Below, in pieces: positions 3,069 through 34,532 of a stretch of 64,000 bases of DNA. The stretch comes from Castanea sativa (lineage: Eukaryota > Streptophyta > Magnoliopsida > Fagales > Fagaceae). The stretch covers positions 42,657,335 through 42,721,334 of the forward strand of contig NC_134018.1 in NCBI RefSeq assembly GCF_040712315.1, given 5' to 3'. Within the stretch, counting starts at the first letter, position 1. Each line of letters starts with the position of its first letter. The notes beneath the pieces were generated by a model, which saw only the letters and a list, made by a program, of their open reading frames with translations, was not told the origin of the DNA and did no database searches. Both the position numbers and the translations under genes were made by a program.

Positions 3069-3069
3069 A

Positions 3070-3115: not shown

Positions 3116-3118
<3 letters not shown>

Positions 3119-3193
3119 TAAAACCCAGTATTTTTTGTTTCTAATTTTTTTTGTTTTTGTTTTAAAATATGAATGTGACTGGGAGTGAATTTC

Positions 3194-8837: not shown

Positions 8838-11800
8838 TTAGTAATAGTACCTTCGTAGATTATTTACATTCCAGGGACGTTGTACAACACATTCATCCAA
8901 ATCTTCCAGATTGTAGGCCCCTATTCCTGTGACCGAAGTAATACGATAAGGTCCTTCCCAGTTGGGCCTCAATTTTCCCCACGCAGAATTCTTCGTCGTA
9001 CCCAAAACTTTCCTTAACACTAAGTCACCAGGTCCAAGAGGTCGAAGTTTCACGTGAGAATCATATCCCTGCTTGAGCTTATGTTGATAATAAGCTAGTT
9101 GAACCATGGCGTTTTCTCGTCATTCCTCAACTAAGTCTAAGTTTCTCATTAATAGATCATCATTGCTATCTGAAATGAAGGAGCTTTTCTTCAGGGTTGG
9201 GAACTTAATTTCTAATGGTATTACTGCCTCGGCCCCATAAGTCATGCCGAAAGGTGTCTCACCTGTGGATTTTCGTGGTGTAGTTCGATACGTCCACAAG
9301 ACATGTGGCAGTTCTTCTACCCACCTCCCCTTGGCGTCACCCAACCTCTTTTTGAGTCCGCTCACTATTACTTTATTGACAGCCTCGACCTGCCCATTTC
9401 CTTGGGGATAAGCCGGAGTGGAATATCTATTCGTAATGCCCAGATCACAGCAGTATTTTCGAAAGGCCTTGCTATCAAATTGTAAACCGTTATCTGAAAT
9501 GAGAGTACGAGGGATGCCGAACCTGGTAACGATATTCTTCCATACAAACTTTTTTGCCTCCATGTCTCTGATATTTGATAATGGCTCAGCTTCAACCCAT
9601 TTGGTGAAATAATCTGTTCCCACGAGAAGCCACCGTCTGTTTCCTGTTGCTTTGGGGAAGGGTCCAACAATGTCCAAGCCCCATTGAGCAAAAGGCCATG
9701 GGCTAGATAGAGGATTCAGGACTCCCCCTGGTTGATGTATATTTGGAGCGAACCTTTGACATTGGTCGCACTTCTTTGCATAATCTTGCGCTTCTCTCTG
9801 CATATTTGGCCAGCAATAGCCCTGAGTAAGGGCTCTGTGAGCTAAAGACCTTCCCCCTATGTGACTTTCACAAATCCCTTCGTGTAACTCTTCCAAAAGT
9901 AGCTCCGTTGCCTCGGGGTGTATACATAACAAATATGGTCCGGAAAATGAACGTTTGTACAATTTCTGGTCCTCGAATAACCAAAAACGAGTGGCTTTCC
10001 TGCGAACTTTATCTGCTTCAGCCTTTTCTCCAGGCATGATGTCATTTCTGAGAAATGTTACTATTTGATCCATCCAACTAGGCCCAGTCCTAATTTGGAG
10101 CATTTGAGTGGAGTTACCGTCCGTCCCAGTGGGTTTCAACAGATCTTCAACAAGGATAATTCGTGGCAGACTTTGTGCCGAGGACGTCGCGAGCGTGGCT
10201 AATGAGTCGGCATGGGTATTGCCACATCTGGATACATGTAATAGTAAAAAAGACTCAAATTTAGACTGCATATACCTGACATGGGTTAGGTATTTTCGCA
10301 TTCTGGAATCCCTTGCTTCTAGTTTCCCTTCCACTTGGCCTACCACCAACAGTGAATCTGAGAACATTTGCACCGTCTTTCCTCCCATTTTATGAACCAT
10401 GTTCATCCCTGCGAGGACGGCCTCATACTCTGCTTCGTTGTTGGTGGCCGAGAATCCTAGTCTCAAAGATTTCTCAAAAGTAAATCCCTCTGGAGATATC
10501 AAGACTAGACCTGTACCCGATCCCCTCTGATTTGCTGCTCCATCAACATGGACTTTCCATAATGGAGGTCCTTCACACGAAATCATGCCTACTGATTTTT
10601 TACCCATGCCTTCTTGATAGTCTTCTAACGAAGGCTCAGCAAATTCCGCCACAAGGTCCGCGATGACCTGTCCCTTTATAGAGGTGCGAGGCATATACTT
10701 GATATCGAAAGCTCCTAGGACAGTTCCCCATTTGGCAATTCTTCCCATATAATCTGCACTTCGCAGAATTAATTTAAAAGGGAGTTGTGTAAGAACAACA
10801 ACTGTATGAGACTGGAAGTAATGGGGAAGTCTTCGTGTAGCATGTACCACCGCCAAGATGGCTTTCTCCAGTGGCAAATAACTCAGCTCGGCCTCATGCA
10901 GAGATTTGCTTACATAATAAATCGGTCTCTAGATGTTATTGTCATCTCGGATAAGAACCAAACTAACTGCATGGTTAGCCACCGCAATATATGCAAACAG
11001 AATTTCATCAACTTCTGGTCGAGACATAACTGGCGGTCGAGAGAGATATTCTTTTAGCTGCTAGAAAGCCACTGTGCACTCCTCGGTCTATTCAAAACCC
11101 TTCCATTTATTCAATAATTGAAAGAAAGGTCTGCATCTGTCCGCAGACCGAGATATAAATCGGTTGAGAGCAGCAGTCATACCTGTTAGTCTTTGCACTT
11201 CTTTAGGATTCCGAGGTGGGTGTAAGCTGTTTATTGCCTTAACCTGAGCATGATTCACTTCAATCCCCCGGTGAGTCACCATATATCCTAGAAACTTGCC
11301 CGATCCCACACCAAAAGAGCATTTAGAGGCATTGAGCCGCAATTTATACTCTCTTAGCTTCTGAAAAGTGTTGCTCAGATCCTCCAGATGTGCAGAAACT
11401 TCTTTACTCTTTACCACCATATCATCCACGTATACCTCAATAGTTTTTCCTAGCTGGGCCTCAAAAATTCTCGTCATCATCCTTTAGTAGGTAGCCCCTG
11501 CGTTTTTCAAACCAAAGGGCATTACCTTATAATGATAATTTCCTGTAGGAGTGATGAATGCAGTCTTCTCCTGGTCCTCAACGGCTAAGGGTATCTGGTG
11601 GTAACCTTGGAAAGCATCGAGAAAACTCATCCGAGGATGTCCAACAGTAGCGTCAACTAATTGGTCAATCTGAGGCATTGGGAATGAGTCCTTCGGGCAA
11701 GCTTTGTTTAAATCTGTGAAGTCTACACAAACTCTCCACTTCCCATTCTTCTTTTTCACCACCATGATATGGGCTAACCATTCAGGATAAAACACTTCTT

Positions 11801-12137
11801 TGATAGCTCCTGCCTCCTTGAGTTTGAGCACTTCCTCTTTTACGGCTTCGGAATGTTCTTTGGAGGACCTCCGAGGTGGTTGCCTCCTCGACACTACAGT
11901 TGGATTGACCTTTAAATGATGACATATGAAGTTCGGATCAACCCTAGGGGCCTCATACGCGTTCCAAGCAAATACATCCATATTTTTCTTTAAAAATAAA
12001 ATCAGTTCTGTCTTCTCTTCCTGCGGCAATTGAACTCCAACCTGGAAGAACTTCTCAGGATCATTGTCTATGAGAATTTTCTCCAATTCTTCACATACCG
12101 CTTCATCTACCCCGGCTGTGGGAAGAGACTTTGATTG
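8838..12137 (-). pseudogene. Gypsy pol: reverse transcriptase, RNase H (two), integrase
   Basis: One frame continues from the gag-protease part. The RT shows the FLDAFQGYHQIPL and MPFGLKNAGATY blocks and the catalytic YVDD box. RT-linked RNase H is followed by a second archaeal-type RNase H (VDGAANQRGSG). The integrase has an HHCC-like zinc region ending CDQCQRF, then the D, D and E residues in LDIVGPF, ISDNGLQF and QVEAVNK, and a C-terminal domain. In-frame stops: TAA 11484-11486 (after GATY), TAG 11088-11090, TAG 11061-11063, TAG 10929-10931 and TGA 9120-9122. Each is one transition away from the residue expected by family alignment (Gln, Trp or Arg). There is no frameshift in this part. 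It is not functional as it stands. Confidence 0.92.
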
Positions 12138-14161
12138 CTATGCCTCTCCGTTAGCCGAGGCCGAGGATTCTGGTTCTGGTTGACGCAGAATTGCAGCCGT
12201 GACACACTGTCGAGCCACAGACTGACTCCCAAGTAACTCCACCACCTGGTCTCCAGAATGAAATTTGACTTTGACATGCAAGGTTGAGGAAACAGCCCCT
12301 AACGCATGCAGCCAAGGTCTTGCCACAATAGCCGTATTGGGAGAATAAGCATCAGCCACGATGAAATCTACGTCTACCACCTCCGGACTTGATTGCATAG
12401 GCAGTCTAATTTGTCCTTTCGAAACGACAGCTCTCCTTTCGAAGCTTATCAAGGGTGAGTCATATGGCATAAGATCTTCAACTCTTAACTTCAAGCCTCT
12501 AAATAGGTCAGGGTACATGATATCTGCGCCACTGCCTTGATCAACCATTACCCTTTTTACATCATAGTTCCCTATTCTGAGGGTTACCACTAAGGCATCA
12601 TCATAAGGCTGGATGGTCCCCATCTTGTCCTCCTCAGAGAAACTTAGGATTGGCAGGATACTTGCCTTAATCCTCTTCGGCTGATCCCGTGACTCTTCGG
12701 CCAATGTTCGAGCTACTGACATTACCCTGAAAGGAGCTGAGCCAGTCCTACCAGGTGCTGCAAAAATGACATTGATAGTACCTAAAGGAGGTCTGGATGA
12801 AGGACCGTCGTGGTTTGCCACTCCTGATTGGCTTCCTCGCCCGTTGGGTTGGTACAGAAACTGCTTCAGCTTTCCCTCCTTAACCAATTGTTCCAAATGA
12901 TTCCACAAAGTGCGACAATCCTCGGTGGTATGACCTCTCTCCTGGTGATAATGGCAATGGAGATTTCGGTTGCGTCTCAAAGGGTCCACTGCCATTTTAT
13001 TTGGCCATCTGAAAAAAGTCTCATGCCTTATTTTCTCCAACAGCTGCTGCACCGGCTCCCTGAAGACGGTGTTGACCACTTGTGGGGGTATGTGACCAGC
13101 CTGCCTGGAAAAATCCCGCGCAGGCCTATTGTTGTTGTATCTGTTCGACCTGAAATCCCTCCTTTCTTGTGGGATAACCTTCGCCTTGCCTTTTCCCTGC
13201 TGCTGATCTTCCTCAACCCTTTTGTACTCGTCGATGCGATCCATTAGTCGACATACGCTTCTGACAGGCTTCTTCGTTAAGGATTTCCTCAAGTCATGCT
13301 CCGTTGGTAGGCCGACCTTGAAGGTCCTTATTGCTACATCGTCAAAGTCTCCATCAATTTCGTTGAACATTTCCCAATACCTGTCTGAATACGTTTTCAG
13401 GGTTTTCCTTTCCTTCATGGCCATGGATAGTAAAGAATCCAATGGACGAGGAACTCTACTGCACGTGATAAAGCGAGAACCGAATGCTCTAGTAAGCTCT
13501 TTGAAAGAATCAATAGAGCCTGCCCTTAAGCCGTCAAACCATCTCATGGCTACGGGCCCTAGGCTAGAAGGAAAAATCTTGCATAACAAAGTTTCATTCC
13601 TGGAATGCACTGCCATTCTCTGACTGAAATGGCTTACGTGCTCCACAGGATCCATCCGACCATTGTAAAGAGTGAAGGCCGGTTGTGTGAAGCGCCGAGG
13701 CAACCTCCCTTCTTCCAATCTGCGCGCGAAGGGTGACCTGGAGATTTGGTGTAATGCTCTGCCCATTGCGTCATTTCCCAAGCCCCTAGGGGGTAGTCTC
13801 TGCCACGCCTCCCACGTAGATTGTCCTCCTCGGAGGAGACATATTCACCTGGGGGATTTTTGGATCTCTGCCCGTAATTGTCATCCTCGGATCCTTCCGA
13901 AGAGGGGTCAGAGACCGGAGGAGTTCTCCTTCTCCTTTCGTGACACAGTCTCCTCTTTAGGCCGTCAATCTCCTTCTGCATGGCCCTGGCATTTCTCTCA
14001 TAAGGAACTCTGCTTCCTCCTTACGAATGACTAGCACTTCTGATGGTGTGTGTAGTATGTACACTTCCTTCTCAGTTCTCTCCATGATTAGGATGTAAGG
14101 AGTGATCCTCACGCTGGGAGCCCACGGACTCTGCACTGCGTGGTGGTTCTGACCCTACCAT
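12138..14161 (-). pseudogene. Gypsy gag and aspartic protease
   Basis: The likely ATG is at 14161, about 50 bp inside the 5' LTR. Gag has an Arg/Ser-rich charged start, a retrotransposon gag core (FSQRMAVHSRNETLLCK, then WFDGLRAGSIDSFKEL) and a zinc-knuckle-like C-x2-H region (CHYHQERGHTTEDC). The protease follows with a D-x-G catalytic motif written VDQGSGADIM, where the usual second residue is Ser or Thr. Damage: TGA 14072-14074, TAA 14021-14023, one frameshift near 13780-13800 by a G/C run, and TAG 12138-12140 at the border with RT. The frame is otherwise the same as that of pol, so the parent encoded one gag-pol polyprotein. Confidence 0.88.
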
Positions 14162-17356: not shown

Positions 17357-17365
17357 GGATGTTAA

Positions 17366-17670
17366 GGACAAAATGGGCAATTAGCCATATTTATGGAAAA
17401 ATATAGTTAGTAGGCATTGGTTTAGAAGTATATAGAATACTAACATCTCGACTCTTAGAGAGTCGATTTTGAGGCTATAAATCGACTCTTATATACTCGA
17501 TTTCCGTGGTCTGATCACATCTGATGTGGCGATTTTTCACGTGGCGGCCACCTGGAAATCGAGTTTCTAAGAGTCGATTTATATATCGACTCTTAAATAC
17601 TCGGTTTACATGTGACGTGTACATGTGAGTTGATCCACCTGGAAATCGAATTTTTGAGACTCGATTTCTA
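17366..17670 (+). repeat. left terminal inverted repeat of the MULE, palindrome array
   Basis: The outer ~220 bp match the right end in reverse complement, including TGATGTGGCG and CACGTGGCGGCCACCTGG. It contains five copies of an imperfect palindrome ATCGACTC...GAGTCGAT at about 17448, 17479, 17556, 17583 and 17642. Such arrays may be transposase binding sites; that is inference. Confidence 0.9.
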
Positions 17671-17699
17671 ATAGGGGTTTTTCAAAATTAACCCAAGTC

Positions 17700-18000
17700 C
17701 AGCCTCTCGCACAGACCAGACCTCTCTCTCGCGCCTCTCTCCACTCTCTGTCACTCACCCTCTCACTGTCGCAGACCTGTCGCGGCTCTTCACTCTCTGT
17801 CACTCACTCTCCCTCTCGCGCCTCTTCACTCTCTGTCACTCACTCTCCCTCTCGCGCCGCTCTCCACCTTCTCACTCGCAGCTCTCATGGCTCTCCACCC
17901 TGTCACGGCTCTCCACCCTCTGACTCGCCCCCTGAGCTATCATTCGGCCTGCCATAGTCTCCACTCTCAAGCACTCTCTCCACTCTCACTCAGTTGTCAG
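17700..18000. repeat. CT-rich tract with ~40-bp direct repeats
   Basis: Strongly pyrimidine-rich; the block CTCTCTGTCACTCACTCTCC with CTCGCGCC recurs about three times. It ends with CAGGTATGTTTTTC, which looks like an exon end with a splice donor, so it may be a transcribed leader on the plus strand driven from the left inverted repeat. No protein is evident. Confidence 0.5.
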
Positions 18001-18425
18001 GTATGTTTTTCTTAAGTGTGTGATTTTTTTATGTGGGTTAGTGGTTTTTGTTCGAAAATCATGATTGAACTGATTGTCGAATAGAGAGTAATATGTTGTT
18101 CACAAATTTCTGTTCACAATTATTGTATGATTGACATTGTCATTGGAAGACTAGTCAATGTGGAACATGTGCACCTTCAAATATGATACAATAAAAAGGT
18201 TGATGGAAAAATGCATTCATGGATCATCATGGAATGATGATTTGCACATTCCTGGGTTAAGAACTTACAAAGGCCACTCATAATTTGTGTGCAGTTTTAG
18301 ATCTCGTCAAGACCCTAGGTCTGTTGGGTTTGTATAACAATTCATCTAGCCTAAGAAAGTTTAAATTAACTCCAGACTCAACTTAAAAGGCAGACAATAT
18401 TGGAGCTTTTGAAATCAAGCTGAAA

Positions 18426-18710
18426 CTACAAATCCAAATAATGGCTTAAATTTCTGCAGATATCTTCATCCCTTAGCTTTGTTAGAGCCTTCTTTTCAAT
18501 TTTCTGCATCCACTCCTTGGTCACACAAAGAAGCCTCCCAGATTCCTCAAGTGATTTAGGCTGGCTGTCCTTGAGACCATACCGTAGGAACAATGCTTGC
18601 CTCTCTCTTGAATCCAAGCCTCTCAAAAGATCATGAATGTCTTTTATCATGTGTTGCTTCATGACAATTTCTTCCGAGCTCTTTATTGACATATTAGGTG
18701 TAAATGATCA
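18426..18710 (-). pseudogene. captured fragment of plastid RNA polymerase sigma factor, region 4
   Basis: About 90 residues with the sigma-70 region 4 pattern: LRGLDSRERQALFLRYGL, then KSLEESGRLL and TKEWMQKIEKKALTKLR, ending HYLDL and a TAG at 18426-18428. Nuclear plant sigma factors with such ends act with the plastid-encoded RNA polymerase in promoter recognition. Regions 1-3 and the transit peptide are absent. Upstream on the minus strand the frame meets a stop with no acceptor site, so the captured piece ends near 18710. The sequence AGACATTCATGATC occurs both inside and just outside the piece, a small duplication at the junction. The 18100-18425 stretch may be captured 3' UTR. It is a gene fragment, not a functional gene. 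The sigma type (SIG1-6) is not decided. Confidence 0.8.
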
Positions 18711-18870
18711 TGAATGTCTTTTTCACGTTTAATACTGAGAGACTGCCTTCATCATCTTTCTTCTCAAAGCTCAGTGCAAAACAAATGCGACCCTTTTGAA
18801 TGCAGGTATTTTATTCCTCTGCAAAAGGGTTTCTGAATTCTGATTACCTATCCATTTATTTATGAGAATT

Positions 18871-19027
18871 GCTTAATTTGAGAACTGGGCAAAAGCTCAC
18901 TTAGAAAAAGATTATGTTTTTCCCAACTATTGATTCATATAAACACAACTTTTCAGTTTATGATATTCTTCTGTTATAAATTCATAGAGGTTATTATTTC
19001 CTACACACACAATTCATAGAGATTAAT

Positions 19028-19065
<38 letters not shown>

Positions 19066-19720
19066 TATGTGTAAACAGATGATGAAAATTGTAGAAAATG
19101 ATTGCTTTTCTATTTATAATTTTATATAGCTTAAATTTGAGAACTGGGCAAAGGCTCTTTTAAAGAAAAAAATTTCCCCACCTCTTGATTCATATAAAAC
19201 AACTTTTCAATTTATGACATCCTCATAGAGGCATATGTGAAAGCAAATGAGGAAAATTGTAGAAAATGATTACTTATCTATCTACATAGCTTAATTTGAG
19301 TACTGGGCAAAATCTCTTGAAAAAAAAAAAGATTATAGTTGTCCTTATTATTGATTCCTATAATACAACTTTTCAATTTATAATATCATTCTGTTCTAAA
19401 TTCGTAGAGATTATTGTTTGTTCACAAACTCATATTGACATTTTTTGTATATATGTGAAACAATTGAGGAAGGTTGTAGAAAATGATTACTTATCTATTC
19501 ATATAGCTTAATTTGAGAATTGGGAAAAATCTCTTTGGAAAAATGTTTGTTCCCTGCTGTTGATTTAAAAAATACAAAATTTTCAGTTTTTAATATCTTT
19601 CTATTCTAAATTCATAGAGATTATTGTTTCACTCACATACTCTCATAGAGACATTTTTGTGTATATGTGAAAACAAATGAGGAAGATTGACAGATTGTAA
19701 AAAATAGTTTATTGGGTTCC
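18871..19720. repeat. four diverged tandem repeats of 160-260 bp
   Basis: Copies start with GCTTAATTTGAGAACTGGGCA-like words at about 18871, 19129, 19289 and 19506, and each continues with TTGATTCATATAAAACAACTTTTCA and TCATAGAGATTATTGTTTC-like blocks. Unit length varies because of internal indels, including a (CA)n tract at 19033-19062. No coding sequence. Confidence 0.8.
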
Positions 19721-21263
19721 TCAATCTCTCACTTATACGCTTTGCTTTGGGGTATGAGTATACTTGAAATTTTTTATTGCATTGGTCCAAAAATGATGTT
19801 GAATTGAATCCAAATCCATATGTTGGTATTAAAAATTGTGAACTTTAGAGTTTCCAATTGTACCTATGTACCCCACTTGGAAGTCGGAAGAACATATCTA
19901 TAGTTGTTTGCTAGGATAGCCATTTGGTGACATTTTCCTCTTAGCACTCAATATTTAATGGAAAAGTTGGCTAACTTTATGAAAGAATTTTTCTCAAAAC
20001 TTATTTGGGAGAAAATTTGTTCAACCTAATACTTGGCAATTCAAATGATCATTTGTGTTTGCTTTAATCAAATGGCATATTTAATAATTATGTGATTGGT
20101 TTAAATGACTTAATGAGTTTTGTGATTAGAATACATGTGGATGGTGGGTTATAGCTTATAGGAGATTCCTCTTATCCAATTTGAAGGAAAACTTTATCCC
20201 TAATTTTATTTTAGACTACTACCAGGATATGGTAATAAACTCAAGATTACCAACTTTTACTTCCCTTTCACTTTATCAAATCCTTCCTCAAAGATATTCT
20301 TTTGGGTTATTAGCTGTGGAACTCTGATAGTTCTTGTAAACAGTGGTACAATCTGTCTCCATTACTTCTTATGCAGTTCAACATTATTTATTTCCTTTAT
20401 TTATTTATTTAAAATTTCACTAATGTTTAACTATATCTTAGATCTACTTTGAAAAGATAGGAAAAAAGGGGTGGGTGCGGGTGGGGGGTGGGTTGGACAA
20501 TTGATTATATACTTTCTGCCTCAGATTATGGATCACAGTGATAGTTTGTATGTGCTACTGACTCTAGCCTAACTTCTTGCTCTACTAAAAATATGGTAAC
20601 AGTGTCTACAATCTGATATGTTTCAAGGGTACTCTTTTACATTTCAAGAAGCTTTTTTTTTTTTGTTTTTTTAAATTCAAAAGGAGCTCACAATCATATT
20701 ACAAATGATATTTAGCATCCGCTTTACCTTAAGGCATAAAAGGGGGGAAAATAACATGTCCTTTTTTTTTTTGATAAGTAATAAAAATATATTGAAAGAA
20801 GGGGGGGTGTCACATACAACACCATTTCTTTTACACATACAACACCAATCCAAAGTCAAAATCTGCCGCTTCCTAAGATTACCAATAGTCAAGAAGCTTA
20901 CTTCCCCTTTTCTTTTTCTTTAGGCCCTAAAATCTAAAGTTAATTACGTATAGGATATTGTAAGCTGGTATGCTTTGCAGCCAAGTCATGTTTAAAAAAT
21001 TAATTGTTTTTTTCCAAAAAACAAATAAAAAGTACAGACAATAAACCTAAGTGTGCAAAACTACTTATCACCAAACAAAAAGAACTGTGACCGGGTCATA
21101 TTCTAATCCTTGAACATCTTTGTCTAATCCCCTCCTGATTCAAAACCTACACTCAGTATTTGGACTCAAAACCTACACTTAGTATTTGGACTATTGTCTG
21201 TGCAAGGAGTATCCATTTTCCTATTTCTATTCTAGGTCAGATGAGCAAACAAACAACCACTAC
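19721..21263. other. non-coding MULE interior
   Basis: No gene or captured exon could be recognised. A T-run followed by GATAAGTAATAAAAATATATTG at 20761-20795 looks like the tail of a retroposon. This stretch may contain intron remains of the captured reductase gene. Confidence 0.4.
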
Positions 21264-22420
21264 CTGCCCATTATCATGTTGACAACAAGTTCCATCTTTG
21301 CTCCATTTCCAACCTGCCCTAGGAAGAATGATTTCTTTCCCAAGACATCAAAAAATGGGATGGCTTCCTCATACAATGCCTGCATTTACAAACAGTGATA
21401 TGATACAATTAACAGTAAAAAAGAAAAAATTCATGTGTACAACAATAAAGGAAAAGTGGTCTCTTATCATTTTGACAATGAATAAAGAAAAATATTTCAT
21501 TCTTTTTATTGTTTATTGGTGGGATGTGATGCATCGCTCTCAATTGTAATGCTCAAAAACCTAGTGTAAAGCTAGATTTAACTATTTCTCTTTTGCCTTA
21601 AGTGACTCTTCCCTCTCCTTATTCTCTATTTACTATCTGATTTCTGTGTTCCAGCCCTCTGTTTAAATTATATCAGCCACGCACTAATTTACCAACTCCC
21701 CCAAAATGCAAGCTAAAACCTAACCTTTTGCATATCTACATTAGATTGTATTAGATTTTACTAAATTAGCCCCAAAAATCTAATGTTCGAAACTGGGAAA
21801 ATCCTGCGCATCAAATTTGGTTAGGAAGTTCTTTGTCCTACATCACTGGCTTTAAGAGCGCAGTTCTTAATAGAAATTGGACCGGTTGCTACGAGCAGAG
21901 TATTGTAAAACCAGAGTAAAGGTGATAGTTCTGAATAAACCTAAATGGAGCAACACTAAGAATAAAGTCATAATATGCTCATCTTGCCTTCAATACCCGC
22001 ACATAAGAACATTCATGTGGAAAGATTGAAAAAAAAAAAAAGGTCATTTGCAGTCACAGGACTATGTAACTTTAAGCCAAATGTTTTTGCCAAAAGAGGC
22101 ATTACTTGTAGACGTGACAACTATTAAGGAAACTTATAAATTTCTTCCTAATGATTTTAAGGGATCATAAAAAATTGGAAGAAATATTCTGGTATAATTT
22201 CTTTGATATTTCTTATAAATTATAATTGAATGTTTTCTTTAAAAGCTTTCAAAGTAGTGTATCCAGGTGACGAGAGGAAGCTAGTTTCATTGCTTTAAAC
22301 ATTTAAGTTTCATTTCAATTTTAGTGGATTGTCTATCATCTTGCATACGCTTCTCCTAGAGTACAAAGTATTAGAAGATGACTCCAGTATGTAGACATTA
22401 CACCTTAAATGTATAGTACA

Positions 22421-22459
<39 letters not shown>

Positions 22460-22588
22460 ATGAATGAAGAGTAGTAGTTTTACCTTAGAGAGGGTTCTGT
22501 TCCAAACAGTGACCTTAAAGCCTTTTCGTAAGAGATTGGTGGCCATGGCCTTTCCCATTATACCCAGACCCAAGAACCCTACTTCCAT
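21264..22588 (-). pseudogene. captured fragment of glyoxylate/succinic semialdehyde reductase (GLYR1-like)
   Basis: Two exons of a beta-hydroxyacid dehydrogenase-family enzyme survive. The first (22484-22588, 35 codons) begins with Met and has the NAD(P)-binding start GFLGLGIMGKAMA and ends VWNRTLSK before a GTAAAA donor. The second (21264-21379) follows a TTTGTAAATGCAG acceptor, encodes FDVLGKKSFFLGQVGNGAKME and ends before GTAGTG. Known GLYR1 enzymes reduce glyoxylate and succinic semialdehyde with NADPH. The exons that should lie between (substrate and catalytic parts) and all later exons are missing, and a (GT)n run sits in the first intron. Splice sites survive, so the capture was of genomic DNA, not of a cDNA. 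A fragment inside the MULE. Confidence 0.85.
22423..22456. repeat. (GT)n microsatellite
   Basis: 17 GT dinucleotides in the first intron of the captured reductase fragment. Confidence 0.95.
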
Positions 22589-22999
22589 TGCCATCTCTTC
22601 ATTTGTTTTTCTTTTTGTTTTCAATGTCTATTACGTGCTAATTGCTTATCAATTATCAATACAAAAAGAATTTAATGCAGATATTCTCAAGTATTTCTAT
22701 CTTTTTCATATTGATTTACACAGTGGCTCTTTGTTTTGTTTTTGGATTATCTTTGTATTGCCTTTTAATTTATGTGGCTACTTATAAGTCAGTACAAGAG
22801 AAAGTTTGCAAATGATTTGAAGTGTATTAATTTTGTCATTTAACATTTTATGAATCAATGAATATGGGCTTGGATTTCACATGGGTATTTCATTTGAAAT
22901 TCATTGATGCATAGCAAGAAGCTAACCTTTTTGATTCATCAGCCCTTTATTTTAAAAACAATGTAACCATATTTTCCTTGTTTTTCTTGTGTGATTTAG

Positions 23000-23215
23000 G
23001 TTATAACCTTGGACATGGGTCTTCTAGTTGCTGGTACAAATACACAAAGAGAGTTTGAGGAATGATTAAAGAAGTTAATGGAGGAAATCAAACAAAGTGA
23101 CGACATAATATTGTTTATTGATGAGGTGCACAGTTTAATTGGAGCTAGAGCAGCAGAAGGAGCAATTGATGCTGCAAACATATTGAAACCAGCTCTGGCA
23201 AGAGGTGAACTGCAG
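23000..23215 (+). pseudogene. captured exon of chloroplast ClpC (Hsp100 AAA+ chaperone)
   Basis: A single 72-codon exon sits between a TGATTTAG acceptor and a CTGCAG|GTAATC donor. It encodes the first AAA+ domain around VITLDMGLLVAGT, the Walker B box IILFIDEVH and [19 protein letters not shown], close to plant ClpC. ClpC feeds substrates to the stromal Clp protease and helps protein import. An in-frame TGA at 23063-23065 stands where Arg is expected (FEE-stop-LKK), one C-to-T step. The substitution of GA by RA after SLIGA and of YRG by TQR are further drift. No neighbouring ClpC exons are present. It is on the strand opposite to the other captured fragments. Confidence 0.88.
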
Positions 23216-23921
23216 GTAATCTTTTACCTAAAAGAGAACTTAATATTGAGATGCATTTAATTTACTCGATTTCCACTGGTTTGTTTTTTTTTTTTTCCTT
23301 GCAGCAGTATAGCAGAAATGTTTTTTTCCTTCCCCTGCAACTGTAAACCAGATCCAGAACACATCACATGGGCAATGTATACAAACATTAATTGAAGAGT
23401 ACATTGAATGCAAGAAATTGGATTAAAATAGTTACTGGGCATGGGCAATATAGTTGCCCTCTTAGGTACAGACCATACAAATTTAAGGCCGTGTAACTAG
23501 CTATCATTGCTTCAAACAAGGCCCCTGTGGTTGAACTTGCCGAAGTAAGTGCTACTAATGCCAAAGTAGTACGATTGCTGGCATTATAGGCAAAAAAGCT
23601 GCACAACGCAACTAATGTAACGAGTACAATGGATAGCTACTGCTTTAATTACAACAACATTCAGTAATAAACAAAATAACAACTAAGTCGATACAACATA
23701 GTCTACATAGTTGCCTAACACTTGTCCATACTGATACAACATGGTCGCGTAGCACTTGTCCATACCGAAGATAACTACAACTCCCACGTACAATGCCATT
23801 CCAAAATCGAGCCTCCGCTCGCCTGAAAAACATTAAAATGTAGTTGTTAGTTCCTAAATGCGAAGAACAAAAACCAAATAAGATTCTGAGCATATTATAT
23901 CAAAACAACAAAGGCACTTGC
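23216..23921. other. MULE interior between ClpC exon and transposase, with unassigned ORF
   Basis: On the minus strand 23388-23606 codes for a hydrophobic, Ala/Thr/Ser-rich segment (LALVALTSASSTTGALFEAM, then YTALNLYGLYL) that looks more like a membrane protein than chance, and a second hydrophobic frame lies at 23680-23840. I do not recognise either. They could be transposase 3' UTR or a further captured fragment. Confidence 0.3.
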
Positions 23922-26665
23922 CTAGTTTGTAGCACTACTGCCTGTCGAAGCCCCACGGGAACCGCTTGTCGAACCCCCAAGGGAATTAGGACATCTTCTG
24001 CGGTTATGCCCCTCTTCATGACACACTCCGCATCGCTGCCTCGGTTGAATCTCCCTCAAGTCCGAATCTGGGTTCCGGCTTCCCCGTTTTCGCCGTAACC
24101 CATCCATTTCATTTCTTATTCTTGACTTCACAGGGCGACCTTTGGCCCACAACAGACTTGGGTCAGGCACCCACCGTGGTCCGCGAACTTCCCTCCACAA
24201 TGACTCTGACATTGGCACCACAAATTGATGTGAATATAAGTGAATGGCGTTCTCCAAACTGTAACATGGGTCAATATAGCTGGTCGCATTGAGATGCAAT
24301 TGTTGCAAAACTTTAATTGCATGTGAACAAGGGATCTTAATGTTTTGCCACTTTCCACAACCACATGTTCTAGCAAATACGCGCACTTCATGACTGTGGT
24401 TTCCCCCTCCACCTCTATGGTCGTTGTATGGGGTAACCACTTGATATACACCAGTTTCATGATTAAATTCCCGCACAGTGTGTCCTGAAGTTTTCTGCAA
24501 ATTTGTGTTATAGATCCCCATTGCATAATCACTCCACACCTTACCTTGAGAGCGATCAGAAGTAATTTGTTTATGTCGATCATGGAAATATGCAACAAGT
24601 TTGCACCAAGTGAACTCAACCATTGCAGCAATGGGCAAACCGCGGGCACCTTTAAGTACCCTATTAAAGCACTTAGAGATATTGGTTGTCATTGCCCCGT
24701 AATGTCTGCCACTATCATGTGACTGGGTCCATTTCTCCACATCCTCACTCATTAGATATGTGTATGGCATATAGCGTTCAAGATGGGGATCATCAGGGTC
24801 TACCCTCCTCAGTGCATTAATCTCGACATCCTTAATAGTTTGCATTATGGACTTAAATTTAGCGTCATGAGTCACATATCCAGCTTTCAAGGCCAAGGCC
24901 TTTAGAGTCGGGTCATCAAAGTGTGTGTTGAATTTGCTAGCAACATGTCGAAGGCAATATCGGTGATGTACCTGTAACTTTCCATCATCACCTAAAGGCC
25001 ACTCTGCAATGGCGCATTTGATACCTTTATGTCGGTCAGAAATAATGCAAATGCCCTCGTTAGGTATCACATGCCCTATCGAATTCCTAAGACACTCTAA
25101 AAACCACCCCAACTAGCCCTTGACTCCTTGTCCACAACAGCAAAGGCGAGAGGCAAAACCTTTTGGTTAGCATCCGTTGCCGTTGCCATTGCAATCATCA
25201 ACACCCCTCGATATTTACCATACAAATGAGTCCCATCAATATTGATCACTGGCCTGCAATATCTAAATGCAACAATGCATGGAGCGAATGCCCAAAATAC
25301 ATAGCGTAGTAACGTAGTACCATCTATGGGGCTAGGTATGGTCCAATAGGTGTACTGGGTACCCGAATCCTAATCCAAGTATGCCAACAACAACTTTCGC
25401 AACCTTTGGTAAGACTCCTCCCAATCTCCAAATATCTTAGCAATTGCCTTTTGTTTTGCATCCCATACCTTATAGTAAGAGAGCTTATGATTATACTTAG
25501 TATCTATGTGGCCCCGGAGCTCTTCAATACGAGCAGTGTGATTTTGTCGCAATTTCTCCACAATTTCTGATGCAAAAAAATTAGAATCCATCATTTTACC
25601 GTCTCTTTGCAGGCCAAAGGGTATACAACTGTGTGGACCCACATAAGACGTGACCATCCACAGACCATTTAATTTAGCCTTCATGAATGCCCCAACGTAC
25701 CACTTGCAGTTGGTGTCAATGCACGCGGCGCACAATTTAGTTTTGGTCGACCTCCGGATTATAAAATTTCTATTATCCTTTGCTGCGTATATTATCAATG
25801 CACGCTTCACCGCCTCTTTATTTGCAAAAGTCAACCCTTTATTAAAATGCATCCCATCTTCCCAAGTAGAAACAAATGGTATCTGAAGACGTGAAGGATC
25901 AACCATATTTTCCCAAGTATTTGCGGAGAATGACTCGGCAGGAGGTGTGTAGGCAGTGGTCGTATTTGTAACATGCTGGACACCAATATCATCGTCCGCA
26001 TCACCTTCATCATGGCACTCCATATTTTCCTCTTCAAAATTGGAAGCAAGTTCATGGTCATCCACATCCTTCTCAAAGTCGCCTCGCTCAATCCTCTCTT
26101 CTTACTCATCCATATCATCGAGATTTTCATCATTATTCACAAAATGATCTTCGTCCTCCACCCCTAAATATGTCTCTTGAGGTTGAAGTGTTTCACTAGT
26201 ATTGGCAGCATAATCTTGAGATGGGAATGTGTAACCTCCCATTGTAGTGCATCCATCGTCTAATTGCAAAGATGTAGTTGTTTGTTGCTGCAACTCCTCG
26301 ACATCAACTTCTGCGAGCGGCTCGGAACTTACGTACAACTTAGCAGCATTTACTTGGGGCATTTTATGGATTCTATTAAACATGACCTTTACATGTTTAT
26401 CTTCTTTGATCGCCATGTACTTGTAATTTATCCGCTCATGAAGGACTTCTTGTGGGTAACGATAAATAATATTTATGTCATAACAAGTAGGGCTCAAACT
26501 CAGTTCTTTCATTATTTTCATCTTCAAATCATTTAATGTCTTCAACTTACGACGTATCATCATGTAATAGCATTCGATACTCGGCCTTTGAAATGCGAAT
26601 CCGTCAATCTGTTCAAGATTGAAAAGGGGACCACCGTAGTATACATTTATGTCAATATTCTTCAA
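23922..26665 (-). pseudogene. MURA-type MULE transposase
   Basis: The order is an N-terminal PB1-like region (from Met at 26665), acidic linker, MuDR DNA-binding domain (FANKEAVKRALIIYAAKDN... CKWYVGAFMK), DDE catalytic domain (INIDGTHLYGKYRG, then IISDRHKGI and the Glu in AAMVEFTW), a SWIM zinc finger (CGCGKWQNIKIPCSHA) and a C-terminal CCHC knuckle (CGVCHEEGHNRRRC). Damage: TAA at 26102-26104, TAG at 25370-25372 and a one-base deletion near 25110 in a G-run just after the first catalytic Asp region (RASWG...). Otherwise all domains are present and readable, so the loss is recent. The transposase would bind the inverted ends and cut both strands. Confidence 0.92.
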
Positions 26666-27569
26666 AGATTGTGAACCTATTAGTCAAGGGTAATATGTTA
26701 GTGACATATTTTAACACAATTACAAAACATTTTTATGTACTCAAAGTAGGAAAATTACAACTTCTTACATCCAACACACCCCACATTTGCATATACTCAC
26801 TCCACATCACATACAAACACACTCAATCATTATTATTTCATACTCAAACAAATAAAAAAACTAAAGACAACACTTACCCCCACTACAAAATTTCAAATCA
26901 TTCTAACAAAAAGATAATAACAAATATTAAACCAAACAACAACAAAATAGCCATGATATAAGCCTAACAATACAAATATATATCTTAAATATTTTTTACT
27001 TCTTATAAAAAAAAATAAAAAAAAGCCTAGCATATATACATTAACTTGTTACATCATATGCATCTACAAACCCCACATTAACATATATACTCAATCATTA
27101 CCATTTGTTTCTAAACAAAAAAAAAATTCATTAATCATACTCAAATTAAAAATAAAAAAAAACTAAATGCACAAATATTCAAATCATTCTATAAAAAATA
27201 TAAAGAAAAATTACAAACCAAACAAAAAAAGTAATGATACATACCCATAAAAAACCTAACATTACATATATGTAACTAACAATTACCCATAAAAAAACCC
27301 TAACATTACATCTATATAACTAACAACTATTCAAAAAAAAAAAACTAACAACTAGAGAGAGTGTTTAAAAACCTTACTTGACATGAGAATGTGTAAATGG
27401 AGGGTGAGTTTGATTTGAAGTTTTCTATGAGAGTGAGAGAGAGAGAGTGAGAGAGGAAGAGAGAGCTGCTGGGTTTTTAGGTGTGGCAAATGGCATAACC
27501 CAGAAAATAGGTATGGTATGATAAAAAGAAGCTGTTCTAACCACGTGGCAGAAAGGGGACCAACCATTA
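26666..27569. other. transposase leader region, no ORF
   Basis: Very A-rich on the plus strand with many ACATATA and AAACTAA words, then a purine tract GAGAGAGAGAG near 27430-27470. It lies between the right inverted repeat and the transposase start and is the likely promoter and 5' leader of the transposase on the minus strand. Confidence 0.45.
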
Positions 27570-27905
27570 AAAATCGACTCTCTGAGACTCGATTTTCCTT
27601 TATAAAAACCGAGTCTATGAGACTCGATTTCTACTTGGAGTTCCCGTTCATCCAGCTGGCAGCATATAATAGTATTTAATTCTTCCATATAAATCGACTC
27701 TCTAAGAGTCGATTTCCAGGTGGCCGCCACGTGGAAAAGCGCCACATCAGATCTAATCAAAACATGTAAATCGAGTATGTAAGAGTCGATTTATAGGCTG
27801 AAAATCGACTCTATAAGAGTCGAGATGTTAGTATTACATATTCTTCCAAACAAGTGCTTACTAACTATATTCTTCAACCGTTAGGGCTAATGGGCCATTT
27901 TCTCC
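27570..27905 (-). repeat. right terminal inverted repeat of the MULE, palindrome array
   Basis: Inverted partner of 17366-17670. Palindromic copies of ATCGACTC...GAGTCGAT lie at about 27571, 27608, 27691, 27768 and 27800. The CCACGTGG block and GCCACATCAGATC are shared with the left end. It is followed by the GGATGTTAA duplication at 27906-27914. Confidence 0.9.
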
Positions 27906-28248
27906 GGATGTTAATGTTGCTAATAAAATGTAAGTTCAAGCAATGGGCTTATTTGAGACTTCGGTCTGGCCTAGTATTTTGTCCGACATGTGGGGTTGGA
28001 CCAATTAAGGGCATCGGCCAGTCCAAAGCTCTAAGCCCATTAATGTGTAGACTTGAAGCGAAAGTTGTATTCCAAGGCCCAAAGGAAAAAAAAAATTAGA
28101 AAAGGTAGATCAATGGAGCCATAGAAAGATGGTTTGAATTTAGTAAAAATGGAGCGTAAAACCCTGTTTGACCCATCTAATAATAGATTGTCACGTCAAT
28201 ATTTTATTTAATGAGAAATACATTCTATCACACTTAATAATATCTCAA

Positions 28249-29966: not shown

Positions 29967-32900
29967 CTAAAGTGGAAGAGGGGCATGTATATTGACCATG
30001 TTCAACTTGGATACCAGTAAAAAGAATTGTTGAGCATTCAAGGCCTTTGTTAATAAATCTGCAATTTGTGAATTGGTTTGAACATGAAGCAACCTGATGT
30101 ACCCTTCCAACACCTTATCTCTTACAAGATGGCAATCTATCTCAATGTGCTTTGTTCTTTCGTGGAAAACAGGATTCCCAGCTATGTGAAGGGCTGCCTG
30201 ACTGTCACAAAACAATAAAGCTGCTTTGGAATGTTTGATCTAAATGTCATTGAGCAAATACAGCAGCCAAATGATCTCACATACAGTTACTGCCATTGAC
30301 CTATACTCTAATTCTGCTGAAGACTGAGATACTGTTTGTTGCTTTTTAGACTTCCATGAAACCAGGGAGTCACCAAGGAAAACACAGAACCCAGTTACTG
30401 ACCTTCTAGTATCAGGACAGGAGGCCCAATCCGCATCTGCAAAAGCCTTCAAATGTAAATCAGACTTGCTTGAGAAAAACAAACCTTGCCCTGGTATGCC
30501 CTTGAGATATTGTAGGAATTTGTTAGCTGCATGTAAGTGTGGTTCTCTAGGATGTGCCATGAATTGGCTTAATTTGTGTACTGCAAATGTTATATTAGGC
30601 CTAGTTATAGTTAGGTACAATAACCTTCCTACTAATCTTCTGTATGAACTAGGATCTTTCAATTCCTTCCCTTCATACTTGCTAAGTTTGAGATTCTAAT
30701 CCATTGGTATTTTGGCTGGCTTGCAACCTGTCATACCAGCATCACTTAACACTTCAAGTGTGTACTTCCTTTGGCACAAATTGTTGCCATCTATAGTCCT
30801 GGCCACCTCAAGACCCAAGAAGAACTTTAGATCTCCTAAGTCCTTTAACTTGAATTGCTAATCTAGTAAAACTTTCAATTCATCCACTGCATGCTTATTA
30901 TCACTAGCAATTAAGATATCATCAACATACACCAATAGAGCAATAAAAGAAGTAGAATTCTTCTTAGTGAACAAAGAGTAATCAGCCTTGGACTATGTAA
31001 AGCCTAAAAGAAGTAAGGCATTGGAAAATTTTGCAAACCATTGTCTTGATGCTTACTTAAGTCCATATAGAGACTTAGTCAGCTTACATACTAGCCCTCC
31101 CTTGCTGTGGAAGCCGATGGTAAATCCATATAGACCTCATCCTTCAAATCACCATGGAGGAAGGCATTGTTGACATCAAGTTCATAAAGGTACCAACCTT
31201 GCACAGCAGCCACTGCAAGAAGACATTTGACAGAAACTAACTTTGCAACAGGGGAAAAAGTCTCAAGATAGTCAAGACCTTCCTTTTGGGTGTATCCCTT
31301 AGCCACCAATCTGGCTTTATATCGTTCCACAAACCCATCAGACCTATACTTCACCTTATACACCCATTTGCAGCCAATGGTTCTTTTATGAGGTGGAAGA
31401 GTAGTAAGAGACCAAGTGTTGTTAGCTTCAAGGGCAGAAATCGTAGTGGCCATAGCTTCTCTACACTTGGGATCTTGAACTGCTTGACGATAGAATTTGG
31501 GCTCCATAATGGAGGAAATCACATTACAGAAGTGGGAATGTCTAGAAAACAATCTATGAGATGACAAATGGGCAGACAAAGGAAAGGCAGTACTAGAGGA
31601 GAGAGGATTGGGAGGAACCTGAGACACCTGTTACATTGATAAGCCTGTAAATAGGCAGGTTTATGACTAATTCTAGTGGATTTTCGAAGAGTAGGAATGG
31701 AAGGAATAGGAGGGGCAGAAACAGTAGGAATGGAAGGAAGTTGAACAACATGATCAGTGACAGATGTAGGGGTCTGATTAGGTTGGTCAACATGCTGGAC
31801 AGAAGGAATAGGAATGGCTTGAGCTAGATGTGCAATAGGTTGATCAAGGGAAATATCAGAAGGCAAAGGGATTGGCAAAGAACCAATCAAAATGGAACCT
31901 GAATCAGCAGTAGGGAGGTCTGCAGTGGAGGAAGTATGGTGATGGGCATCAAGAAGTGTGGTGTCTGTGGAAATTGGAATAGAAAGTGGAGAATAAGAAG
32001 AGTCAAGGCTTGGAGTAATAGAATTAGACAAAGGAACAGACAAAGGAGGTGATAACGAAGAGTGAGATGACTGAGAAAAAGGGAAGACAAACTCATGGAA
32101 AACAACATCTCGAGAGATAGAAATTTTTCTAGAATGAAGATTAAGGACTTTGTAACCCTTCACATTGAAAGGATAACCTAGAAAAACACAAGGAGTAGCT
32201 CTAGATTCAAACTTCAACCTATGAATAGAAGGGGTAGAAACAAAACATAGACAACCAAAAACTCTTAGATGATTAAAAGAGGGTTGCTTATGAAAAAGAA
32301 GTTCAAAGGGGACCTATTATTTAACAAAGATGTAGGCAACTTGTTAATGAGATAAGTTGCTGTTAAAAGACAATCACCCCAATAAGCAGAAGGAATATTA
32401 TATTGAAGTTTAAGGGATCTAGCTACATTCAAAAGATGTTGATGCTTTCTTTCAACCATAGAATTTTGTTGGGGTGTATAAGCACAACTCTTTTGATGTA
32501 TAATGCCATGATCACCATAAAAATCAAGCAAAGAAAACTCAGGGGCATTATCTGATCTGATTGCCTTAATACCAATGTTAAATTGAGTTAAAATCATGTT
32601 ATAGAAGGATATTAAGAGGTGTTTAACATTAGATTTAGCCTTCATAAGGTAAACCCAAGTAGACCTTGTGGCATCATCAACAATGATAAGGAAAAATTTT
32701 AAACCATCATGTGTGCATACAAAATATGGACCCCAAACATCCACATGAATCAAGGAAAATGGCTCAGCACACATATTATTAAGAGAAGGAAAAGATAACC
32801 TCTTTTGCTTAGCCAATGGACAGATAATACACACAGTAGTACATTTAGTAGAGATAGAAGGTAATACATCTTTTAAAACTGACAGTTTATGAAACGAAGG

Positions 32901-34532
32901 ATGTCCCAATCTAAAATGCCACAAGATTGACAAATCTTTATTTGAAATAGAAGCTGAAAGGGGCTGACTTGAGGTTCTTGTTGGTGGAAGCAAGATCAGA
33001 CAGAGAAGGGAGGGGACAGTCCTAGAATTGGATTTCTGTAGCAAATACAGACCGTTTTGGACTTCACCCACTCTAGTCGTCCTCCAACAAGAAAGGTCTT
33101 GAATGAAGCAAAATTGAGACAAGAACACAAGACAAAGAGGCAAACTATGTGTGAGTTGACTGACAAATAGAAGATTGAATGAGAAAGATGGAACACAAAG
33201 TACATGCTCAAGAATGAGAAAATTGGAAAGTTTAACAGTGCCAATATGAGTGACATGTGTTGATTCATCATTTGGTAACTCAACAACACAATTAGCAACA
33301 GTAGTGTAAGTTTGAAAGAAAGAAATAGAACAAATAATGTGATCACTAGCTCCAGTGTCCATAACCCAAGTACTATTATCAAAAGCAGTCCTATTCACAA
33401 GCTTAGCAGAAAAATTGGAGTGCTTGAGATTACCTGCCAATGGTGTAGACTGAGATGTTGAAGCTTGATTAAGAGAAACATTGCTAGCCATGGCAATGGG
33501 GTTGGTCTGAGCATTAGACCCTCCAATCATAGCAAGCAACTTCTGGCATTGCTCCAAGGTAAAAGGAAAAGGTGATGGTGTGGTAGCAGTAGCTGATTCT
33601 TGAACGAAATCAAAAGACAAAACTTGATTTGCCCGTGCCTTGATCTTGTATCCAGGAGGATATCCATGGATTTTGTAACACTTCTCAACAGTGTGACCAA
33701 GCAATCCACAGTGACTACAAGTAGGCCTCTCCTTTCCTCTCTTAAATGACTTGGAACCATGAATCATTGCCTTTGCTGCTGCAAGTGCTGTGGATTCAAC
33801 AAAAGGCCCATTGCTGCTGCCTTGTCCAATTGACCTTTGCTTTTCATCTTTAATCAACAAGGAATATACCTTGTCCACAAATGGAATAGGATCCATTAAC
33901 AGAATTTGACCTCGGATGTGAGAAAAATAGTCATTGAGACCCATCAGAAGCTGCATGATGGCTTCTTTGTGATGAAGGTTAGAAATCCTCTCATTCACAT
34001 GACATACACACTTCTCACATGAACAAAGAGGCAGTGGCTCATAATTCTGTATTTCATCCCATAAAATTGAAAGACTTGTGAAGTAATCACTCACAAAGAG
34101 CTCACCTTGAGAAAAACTAGCAAGATCCTTTTGCAATTGATAGATTCTTGGACCATTCCCTTGAGAAAACATGGTTGGAAGCTTCTTCCAAACCTCCTTG
34201 GCAGTTTTGCGATACACCATGCTTGTTGCAATTTTAGGGAAAACGCAATTAATGATCCAAGAGACCACAATGTCATTGCATCGTGCCTAGCTTTGAACAA
34301 ATAGGGAAATTTTCTCCATTGCTGGGGTCAAAGAAACAGAGCCATCAATCAACCAAAACTTGGTTTTGATTCTGAGAGCTCGTTCCATTGATTGTGCCCA
34401 TGTGGAATTATTCTCTCCTCCAATCAGTGGTTGAGAAATGAGAATTGCACCAAGACTTTTTGCGTGATGAAGAAAGAATGGATGAGATTCATCAATGGTA
34501 ACACTTGCAGATGCTTGATCAGAGGAAGCCAT
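29967..34532 (-). pseudogene. Copia gag-pol (gag, protease, integrase, RT, RNase H)
   Basis: Gag starts at 34532 and includes a CCHC knuckle (CSHCGLLGHTVEKC). The protease shows WVMDTGASDHI. The integrase has the WHFRLGHPSFHKL pre-domain and HVDVWGPYF with SDNAPEF. The RT has [26 protein letters not shown] and a YVDD box near 30913-30924. RNase H has [16 protein letters not shown] and ends in [12 protein letters not shown] and ADLLTKAL. In-frame stops lie at about 34287 and 30240, and frameshifts lie near 32240, 31600 and between 31090 and 30670. All domains are in the Copia order. Not functional. Confidence 0.92.

Follow-up and report, generated by a model that had tools for sequence, protein, structure and literature searches.

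Gene capture by transposons has been studied mostly in non-autonomous elements. Among these are the Pack-MULEs, reportedly the subject of Jiang et al. in 2004. The relevant passages of PMC3310237 and PMC8903248 define them as non-autonomous, and in the packFinder pipeline, as outlined in part of PMC8903248, an element matching a transposase is filed as autonomous before any search for host genes. Captured genes within transposase-bearing elements are already known: the pertinent sections of PMC2528002 describe such elements from grapevine, with genes acquired by transduplication (Hatvine-6, Pifvine-3, and a Mutator family with pieces of cellulose synthase), in which transposase and ends are conserved and a variable region of host genic DNA is sometimes common to several copies. 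Then there are the KI-MULE and ULP-carrying MULEs, which captured a host domain and kept it beside the transposase MURA (PMC2528002 and PMC13317346, in part), the MULEs of grasses and Amborella that carry a plant mobile domain (PMD), presented as PMD-transposase fusions in the portion of PMC5418596 devoted to them, and Tgm-Express1, a soybean CACTA element with five host fragments (PMC1947982, in part).

Positions 17366-27905 of the window (the whole 64,000-nucleotide stretch of Castanea sativa DNA that was analysed) are a single Mutator-like element (MULE) of 10,540 bp, a defective mosaic from a large family. An exact 9-bp target-site duplication (TSD), GGATGTTAA, flanks it at 17357-17365 and 27906-27914, the only places in the window where that sequence occurs on either strand. 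Its terminal inverted repeats (TIRs; 17366-17584 forward, 27687-27905 reverse) align ungapped over 219 nt at 84.5% identity. Both lengths agree with those expected of MULEs (9-11 bp for the TSD, 100-500 bp for the TIRs), as do the MURA-type domains inside. An earlier note, made from the letters alone, had read the duplication and some 220 bp of inverted ends in the same way. It had also set store by an empty site, and one exists in paralogous form: two loci on C7 (L053 and L054; 86-88% identity) cover the joined flanks without the element, L053 with one exact GGATGTTAA, L054 with one mismatch in it and a rearrangement just beyond. No captured block has a target duplication of its own: the longest words shared by its flanks measure 0-6 nt, no more than 500 random pairs give by chance. 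Because the TSD is exact, the paralogous site empty and the internal block edges free of duplications beyond chance, the mosaic entered its present site once, as a unit; its pieces are not the later, separate insertions that the note had allowed for.

The idea that the two ends come from different elements, also allowed for in the note, is rejected by a complete relative, L011 (C9; 8,995 bp; TSD ATGTTGCCA), which has both and matches the left end, MURA and the right end of the window copy. The TIRs of the two copies are 96.3% identical left to left and 95.0% right to right, against 84.5% (window copy) and 85.4% (L011) left to right. In both elements, then, the left TIR is of one type and the right TIR of another, which likewise rejects a mixed origin of the ends; their divergence therefore cannot date the window copy. 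The left end as a whole (17366-18160, forward; 97.5% identical to L011 and 98.2% to L009) holds the TIR, extra copies of TIR-like motifs, a CT-rich stretch, a predicted non-coding first exon and the start of a predicted intron. Inward from the right TIR lie the right subterminal region with the 5' flank of MURA (26684-27686, reverse; searched for in relatives with 26750-27680 as query), MURA itself (23922-26683, reverse) and its 3' flank (23264-23921), common to family members. MURA aligns over residues 1-918 of a 921-residue Quercus lobata protein (P0001) and matches PF10551 (MULE), PF03108 and PF04434 (SWIM). The note was right that the element contains a MURA frame, but that it encodes its own transposase is not supported: two in-frame stops (26102-26104 and 25370-25372) and a frame change near 25105 break it. 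The copy has no intact transposase, as an autonomous MULE would, nor does it lack one, as a Pack-MULE would, the gene being nearly full-length.

Between the TIRs are captures from four host loci, each with its source in the same genome. The earlier note had recognised a sigma factor, a GLYR1-like protein and ClpC, all of them real and now aligned to their sources; a fourth, from a Myb locus, had escaped it. The last exon of sigC and the DNA downstream of it (18161-18705, reverse) differ from C10:37514144 (L033) by 20 substitutions over 545 sites, and frames farther upstream in L033 match Sigma70_r2 and r3. The Myb-locus piece (18720-20577, forward; 15 substitutions over the 1848 sites of 18720-20570) comes from C6:42094860 (L038), directly upstream of a Myb/SANT-like exon; the open reading frame just past the captured segment matches PF12776. 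The GLYR1 piece (20571-22621, reverse; from C8:2829243-2831264, L041/L042) comprises exon 1, one later exon and introns, the middle exons being absent through an internal gap that starts at a GT repeat. Last is a ClpC exon with flanking introns (22647-23267, forward), containing one stop and 94.3% identical to the gene at C4:50938196 (L051). A 54-bp stretch (22598-22651, forward) is what remains of the end of the PMD intron predicted for the family; neither the acceptor AG nor PMD itself is present in the window copy, which is to that extent no PMD-MULE. Two junctions bear on how the pieces were joined. The 17 nt between sigC and the Myb-locus piece (18706-18722, forward) exactly copy 18629-18645, a sequence with two matches in the window and none in 100 shuffles, and this templated filler suggests template-switching repair. 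The Myb and GLYR1 pieces overlap by 4 nt, TTCT, a candidate repair signature.

The note's suggestion to look for other copies by their ends led to a large family. Left-TIR relatives are 89-100% identical (40 scored of 1089 candidates), as are relatives of the right subterminal query at 90-100% (40 scored of 201 candidates); short internal or opposite-strand matches, 48 of 88, were left out of the left-end search, and 8 of 48 out of the right-subterminal one. Downstream of 35 of the 40 scored left ends, the window included, lies a MURA 3' flank or a right end, where chance would give right-end pairing about 0.0007-0.0035 times per left end. Pieces of host genes are present in 14 (perhaps 15) of 18 sampled copies. 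MURA with captures, which the note had thought uncommon, is thus common within the family. The note had also seen a plastid theme, and sigC and ClpC do act in plastids. A plastid bias is rejected, much of the cargo of other copies being of other kinds: pieces of topoisomerase II, a LysM receptor, PPR, ribosomal L22e, B-box, bromodomain and kinase genes. The L024 B-box piece has no Pfam match of its own, just a 78-nt match to the piece in L016, and a piece in L021 and L027, which I take to be a UDP-glycosyltransferase, likewise has no Pfam match. One sigC boundary is common to six elements (the window copy, L009, L011, L016, L021 and L027), the longest sigC piece, 2,027 bp, being in L016. Positions 19829-22651 of the window copy are also found in L009. 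The sigC/Myb junction occurs in the window copy only (nine of nine candidates scored).

I propose, with good though not full confidence, that the element is a defective mosaic of a two-gene MULE family and that, in relatives with a PMD gene, the identified upstream cargo lies in what is probably the first intron of PMD. The boundaries common to several copies favour an uptake of host DNA in steps, and the most likely means is a switch of template while breaks within the element were being repaired. The capture of sigC would have come first. The Myb-locus segment and GLYR1 would have followed, before the split from a relative on C8, and then the ClpC piece, probably from a ClpC copy already within a MULE, would have been set where the PMD gene had been lost. 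The mosaic entered its present site once, as a unit. A difficulty is that ClpC is the capture most diverged from its gene (5.5%), despite a position that points to late arrival. I would explain this by a source carried in a MULE, of which part has been seen. Other ClpC copies exist on C7 and C9 (L052), and the one on C9, the closest measured, differs by 2.9% and has a MURA 3' flank on its own strand at a distance of about 2.5 kb. Exchange between MULEs is the likely route for ClpC. (In the search for ClpC beside the MURA 3' flank, one short and four ClpC matches out of 42 were left out; in that for GLYR1 beside the PMD intron end, two GLYR1-gene matches and one outside the intron end out of 39. 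I computed the positions of the window in both searches, and of L009 in the second.)

In its long form, about 16-20 kb, the family carries MURA and PMD as convergent genes, the first read inward from the right end and the second from the left. The PMD gene (PF10536) is present in 14 of 18 other copies sampled, often broken. A predicted splice donor, CAG/GTATGT, stands at 17998-18006 (forward; GT at 18001). Of 21 loci examined, the window included, 18 have a recognisable copy of this region, and all 18 keep its AG/GTATG; in L014, L015 and L022 the region was not found. The acceptor AG is kept in 13 of 14 copies, directly before a PMD ATG kept in 14 of 14, and 14 of 29 annotated PMD proteins, picked among 120 listed, begin at that ATG. 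Nine copies have both signals together with at least one identified fragment upstream, and in every one of the nine all such fragments sit between the two signals. The span from donor to acceptor is probably the first intron of PMD, where cargo could build up without breaking either gene of the element. It is not the sole site that accepts DNA, since four copies (L017, L019, L020 and L023) have about 1.1-2.9 kb extra ahead of the donor, and the interval from PMD to MURA forms a further zone of cargo.

An alternative view is that there is no intron, that the splice-like signals are merely conserved element sequence and that cargo lands wherever the element is easily broken. The extra DNA before the donor and the zone past PMD fit this view, as do L011 and L017, where cargo is present and a search for the acceptor region found none; in L014 and L022, which likewise have cargo, it was the donor that was not found. 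The same signals speak against it, kept as they are almost without exception and at the very place where about half of the picked proteins start, and I think it doubtful. Two features of PMD also count against the proposed reading: in exon 4 the coding frame has a pN/pS of 0.69, not the lowest (the other frames give 0.92 and 0.41), and exon 3 is interrupted by a stop in 9 of 14 copies.

A different history would have the captures made in a non-autonomous Pack-MULE, which gene conversion or unequal exchange later combined with a relative that had a transposase, the hybrid being the result. The C9 copy of ClpC, nearer to the captured piece than the gene is, lends this some weight. Against it, 35 of the 40 scored left ends are paired with a MURA flank or a right end, matching TSDs enclose MURA together with host pieces in L011 and in L017, and L014 holds both within the 10 kb examined. 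No non-autonomous stage is needed, and I judge the hybrid history unlikely. More unlikely by far is a nested origin, in which an ordinary MULE received the fragments already packed in some other mobile element, a Helitron or a different kind that carries several fragments. Helitrons often carry several gene fragments with introns, and the fragments here do retain introns, in mixed orientation; Helitron insertion leaves no target duplication, and no duplication beyond chance is found at the block edges, which tells against nesting of other kinds. A scan around the fragments for common Helitron termini gave scattered CTRRT motifs, confined to a single 1-kb stretch. MULEs that have none of the other fragments share the sigC boundary, so that the fragments did not come as one package, and in two MULEs the GLYR1 block abuts the PMD intron end. 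That the assembly united unrelated pieces is scarcely credible. The exact four-part mosaic, it is true, was found nowhere else among the copies compared; the TSD at both ends with its matching empty site, and the recurrence of the Myb/GLYR1/PMD-intron part in an independent element on C8, speak against an artefact.

The stepwise mosaic resembles Pack-MULEs in its MULE TIRs, 9-bp TSD and intron-bearing host fragments from different loci. It differs from them, as defined in the passages cited at the outset, in that it and several relatives keep MURA, broken in this copy. The genes of maize MuDR are mudrA and mudrB. Like MuDR (PMC3310237, in part), the chestnut family has two convergent genes, one from each end, the second being PMD in the chestnut relatives; no mudrB came up among the genes recognised in them. 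The ULP-carrying MULEs share with it a captured host domain retained beside MURA; theirs, in the excerpts cited above, is a single stable ULP1 domain, in contrast to a changing host set. Tgm-Express1, too, has inverted ends enclosing a stack of unrelated gene fragments with introns, but it is a CACTA element, and splicing joins its fragments to the transcript of the gene into which it inserted (PMC1947982, in part). The variable-region families of grapevine are hAT and PIF, and the sections of PMC2528002 on them describe neither a PMD gene nor intron placement.

The chestnut family adds a eudicot case to the MULEs that carry PMD, a domain with relatives in host genomes that function in silencing (PMC5418596, in part). 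Unlike the fusions described in that portion for grasses and Amborella, its PMD is a separate, convergent gene beside changing host cargo. I found no account in the open-access literature of such a pairing in a eudicot MULE family, or of cargo placed in an intron, which does not prove that none exists. In this family transposase-bearing copies gain and lose host fragments, and the boundaries allow the order of capture to be read. Tentatively, I would go further: the family may spare its transposition genes by loading captured DNA into the PMD intron and the gap between genes, a self-mobile vehicle for exon shuffling made of left-end promoter, donor, changing host exons and PMD acceptor, from which captured exons might be spliced onto PMD coding sequence and dispersed by a family with a transposase of its own. 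Intron placement, if true, would explain why cargo is tolerated and offer a route to chimeric host-PMD genes. Several annotated gene models in Fagaceae fuse PMD with host domains.

The MULE proper spans 17366-27905 of the window (10,540 bp). The earlier note had described an exact 9-bp duplication and inverted ends of about 220 bp, and both are there: the word GGATGTTAA is identical at 17357-17365 and 27906-27914, and 17366-17584 aligns with 27687-27905 over 219 nt, ungapped, at 84.5%. An empty site, which that note had suggested seeking, exists too. The window's own genome (716 Mb, 13 contigs; the window is C6:42657335-42721334) was searched with both element flanks fused at a single GGATGTTAA. 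Four matches resulted. Two are the element's flanks; the other two are paralogous loci on contig C7 that cross the joint (86-88%). One of these (L053) has exactly one GGATGTTAA and no element; the other (L054) has the word with one mismatch, is rearranged just past the joint and is also free of the element. Given the exact duplication and the element-free paralogues, the MULE therefore entered as one unit.

The element does contain a frame for the MULE transposase, MURA, but not an intact one. It lies on the minus strand, reading from the element's right end, has Pfam domains PF03108, PF10551 and PF04434, and aligns in two pieces (76% and 79% identity) to residues 1-918 of a 921-aa Quercus lobata protein (P0001). 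Two in-frame stops and a single change of frame make this copy a pseudogene; oak annotations include unbroken relatives. Pack-MULEs, in the portions available of PMC3310237 and PMC8903248, are without transposase by definition, so an element that works like them yet holds a (broken) MURA is not a strict Pack-MULE.

Fragments of a sigma factor, GLYR1 and ClpC had been recognized as captures. Each aligns to a source gene in the same genome, but the captures with source loci number four, not three, a Myb/SANT-like segment having been overlooked. The sigC capture (18161-18705) comprises the last exon and the part downstream, and differs at 20 of 545 sites from its source at C10:37514144 (L033), where frames upstream match sigma-70 regions 2 and 3; a Castanea mollissima sigma factor matches the fragment at 93% identity. 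The Myb-locus capture (18720-20577) has its source some 580 kb from the element, at C6:42094860, in the stretch immediately upstream of a Myb/SANT-like exon (PF12776), and shows 15 substitutions in 1,848 sites over 18720-20570. Within it, 18841-19700 is a degenerate tandem array with a spacing of about 217, which the source locus has as well. The GLYR1 capture (20571-22621) shows 28 substitutions in 1,618 sites, in its main part, against its source gene at C8:2829243-2831264, and is without about 665 bp containing the middle exons (NAD_binding_2 match), a gap that starts at a GT repeat. In the source gene (L041), 397 bp at 675-1071 are missing from both captured copies and contain a frame that by eye resembles a piece of a non-LTR retrotransposon. 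The ClpC capture (22647-23267), one exon with its intron flanks, has 33 substitutions in 598 sites against the gene at C4:50938196 (L051, which also contains the preceding AAA exon) and 17 in 596 against a copy on C9 (L052). A MURA 3' flank lies about 2.5 kb from L052 on the same strand, and a third ClpC copy, on C7, is likewise close to a MURA flank. Since L052 is nearer than the gene and MURA flanks accompany the C9 and C7 copies, the ClpC piece probably came from another MULE-borne copy, as judged from the parts seen of those two loci.

The captures can be ordered with the help of other family members, a comparison the earlier note had proposed. A genome search with the left end gave 1,089 first-look candidates; the 40 scored had full-length matches of 89-100%, and 10-14 kb was fetched from 18 of the 39 outside the window. 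One sigC boundary is common to the window, L009, L011, L016, L021 and L027, in which the piece measures 2,027 bp (L016), 1,648 (L011), 545 (window), 190 (L021, L027) and 119 (L009); L017, L019 and L020 contain different parts of sigC. The shared boundary and differing lengths thus suggest an old capture, eroded since. L009, on C8, shares 19829-22651 with the window, a stretch that takes in the GLYR1 gap and both joints of the GLYR1 block, to the Myb block and to the PMD intron end. The sigC/Myb joint is confined to the window copy among the nine of nine candidates scored. Two further copies have both ends, MURA and host pieces: L011 (8,995 bp, target duplication ATGTTGCCA) and L017 (about 9.6 kb, duplication of 9-10 bp). 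The topoisomerase II piece of L021 matched 13 of 13 candidates scored; the 97% match at C11:65228931, away from every scored left end, is a possible source. L009 also bears, at 1935-3266, a fragment of a LysM receptor: an open frame of 444 aa in which Pfam finds NFP/LYK LysM domains.

Had the fragments inserted separately, as the earlier note allowed, each might have its own duplication. None beyond chance was found at the edges of the captured blocks, where shared words are 0-6 nt; of 500 random pairs, 101 share 6 nt and 45 share more. What the joints do hold is a 17-nt filler between sigC and the Myb block (18706-18722) that exactly copies 18629-18645, and TTCT common to both sides of the Myb/GLYR1 joint, a match that by itself could be chance. 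When break repair switches templates, it leaves templated fillers and microhomology, and we infer that such switching produced these captures. For animal Pack-TIR elements, 67.6% of cases are reported to have microhomology at one breakpoint or at both (PMC8277862, in the portion available).

We propose that the most likely place of the upstream cargo is the predicted first intron of a second gene, PMD (plant mobile domain, PF10536), convergent with MURA. PMD sequence occurs in 14 of the 18 other copies (E 7.5e-54 in L009), its ATG preceded by a T-rich tract and TTGTGCAG; the CT-rich left end terminates in CAG/GTATGT. The donor AG/GTATG is kept in all 18 loci in which the region was found, of 21 examined (it was not found in L014, L015 and L022), the acceptor AG in 13 of 14 and the ATG in 14 of 14. 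From a list of 120 annotated PMD proteins, 29 were picked; 14 of these start at this ATG, and P0133 and P0153 have it after a short extension. In nine copies both signals occur together with an upstream host fragment of known identity (L009, L013, L016, L019, L020, L021, L023, L026, L027), and every such fragment lies between donor and acceptor; hence the placement. The window copy has lost PMD: 54 bp of intron end remain, then ClpC.

Against the intron placement, L014 and L022 have cargo where the donor was not found, L011 and L017 have cargo where the acceptor was not found, and 1.1-2.9 kb of extra DNA separates left end from donor in L017, L019, L020 and L023. A second cargo zone, with bromodomain, L22e, B-box, kinase and RETICULATA-like pieces, lies between PMD and MURA. 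Selection tests are mixed: pN/pS is 0.50 in frame for MURA across five copies (0.74 and 0.71 in the other frames) and 0.36 for PMD exon 3 (0.57 and 1.06), but 0.69 for exon 4 (0.92 and 0.41), a value that lends selection no support, and exon 3 has a stop in 9 of 14 copies. Fagaceae gene models that fuse PMD with a host domain (pyrroline-5-carboxylate reductase, superoxide dismutase, RNA-dependent RNA polymerase and RuvB-like, among others) may represent true chimeras or artefacts of gene prediction; the host part is C-terminal in the three inspected. Eight Fagaceae proteins with PMD and unrelated host domains (P0137, P0141, P0144, P0151, P0163, P0198, P0200, P0235) are candidate chimeric genes made by this family.

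Transposase and cargo commonly occur together in the family. Matches to the left end, MURA 3' flank, right subterminal region and PMD intron end were joined where position and strand agreed within 25 kb; the counts are lower bounds because they come from the matches listed, near 40 per search. Downstream of the 40 left ends (window included), the MURA flank follows at least 22, the right region at least 29, either of these at least 35, the PMD intron end at least 25 and all three features at least 14. By chance the right region would be within range of about 0.0007-0.0035 of left ends. The 29 left-right pairs have approximate lengths of 2.8-21.6 kb (median 16.3 kb). L014 and L022, in which the donor region was not found, share the left-end type of L017, L019, L020 and L023. 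By DNA match, one or more of the tested host fragments are present in 12 of the 18 other copies, several of the queries having originated in tested copies, with host identity from Pfam. Pfam adds L013 (CCD97-like) and L018 (ribosomal L22e), making 14, or 15 if a 78-nt match of L024 to the B-box piece of L016, with no Pfam hit of its own, is counted. Neither method found host fragments in L015, L025 or L028; L015 and L028 are each about 3.5 kb long.

Parts of this are on record. The available portions of the sources describe grapevine elements with transposase and host fragments, and ULP-bearing MULEs (PMC2528002), PMD in MULEs of grasses and Amborella (PMC5418596), and a soybean CACTA element with five host fragments (PMC1947982). 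In the portions of the open-access literature searched, no description was found of a eudicot MULE family that has PMD as a separate gene alongside changing host cargo, or of cargo in an intron of an element's own gene.

The rest of the window holds, on the minus strand, a Gypsy-type retrotransposon at 9123-13844 (9123-10928 contains RNase H and integrase domains; more frames lie in 11484-13844) and Copia-type pieces at 30240-34286 (GAG-pre-integrase and integrase in 32268-34286; 30243-30695 gave no hit in a Pfam scan). The same strand carries a 985-aa open frame for an LRR receptor kinase (60787-63741), two kinase pieces (57540-58019, 45519-46157) that look like related, broken copies of it, and a 369-aa open frame at 50648-51754 matching PF20167, "putative plant transposon protein".
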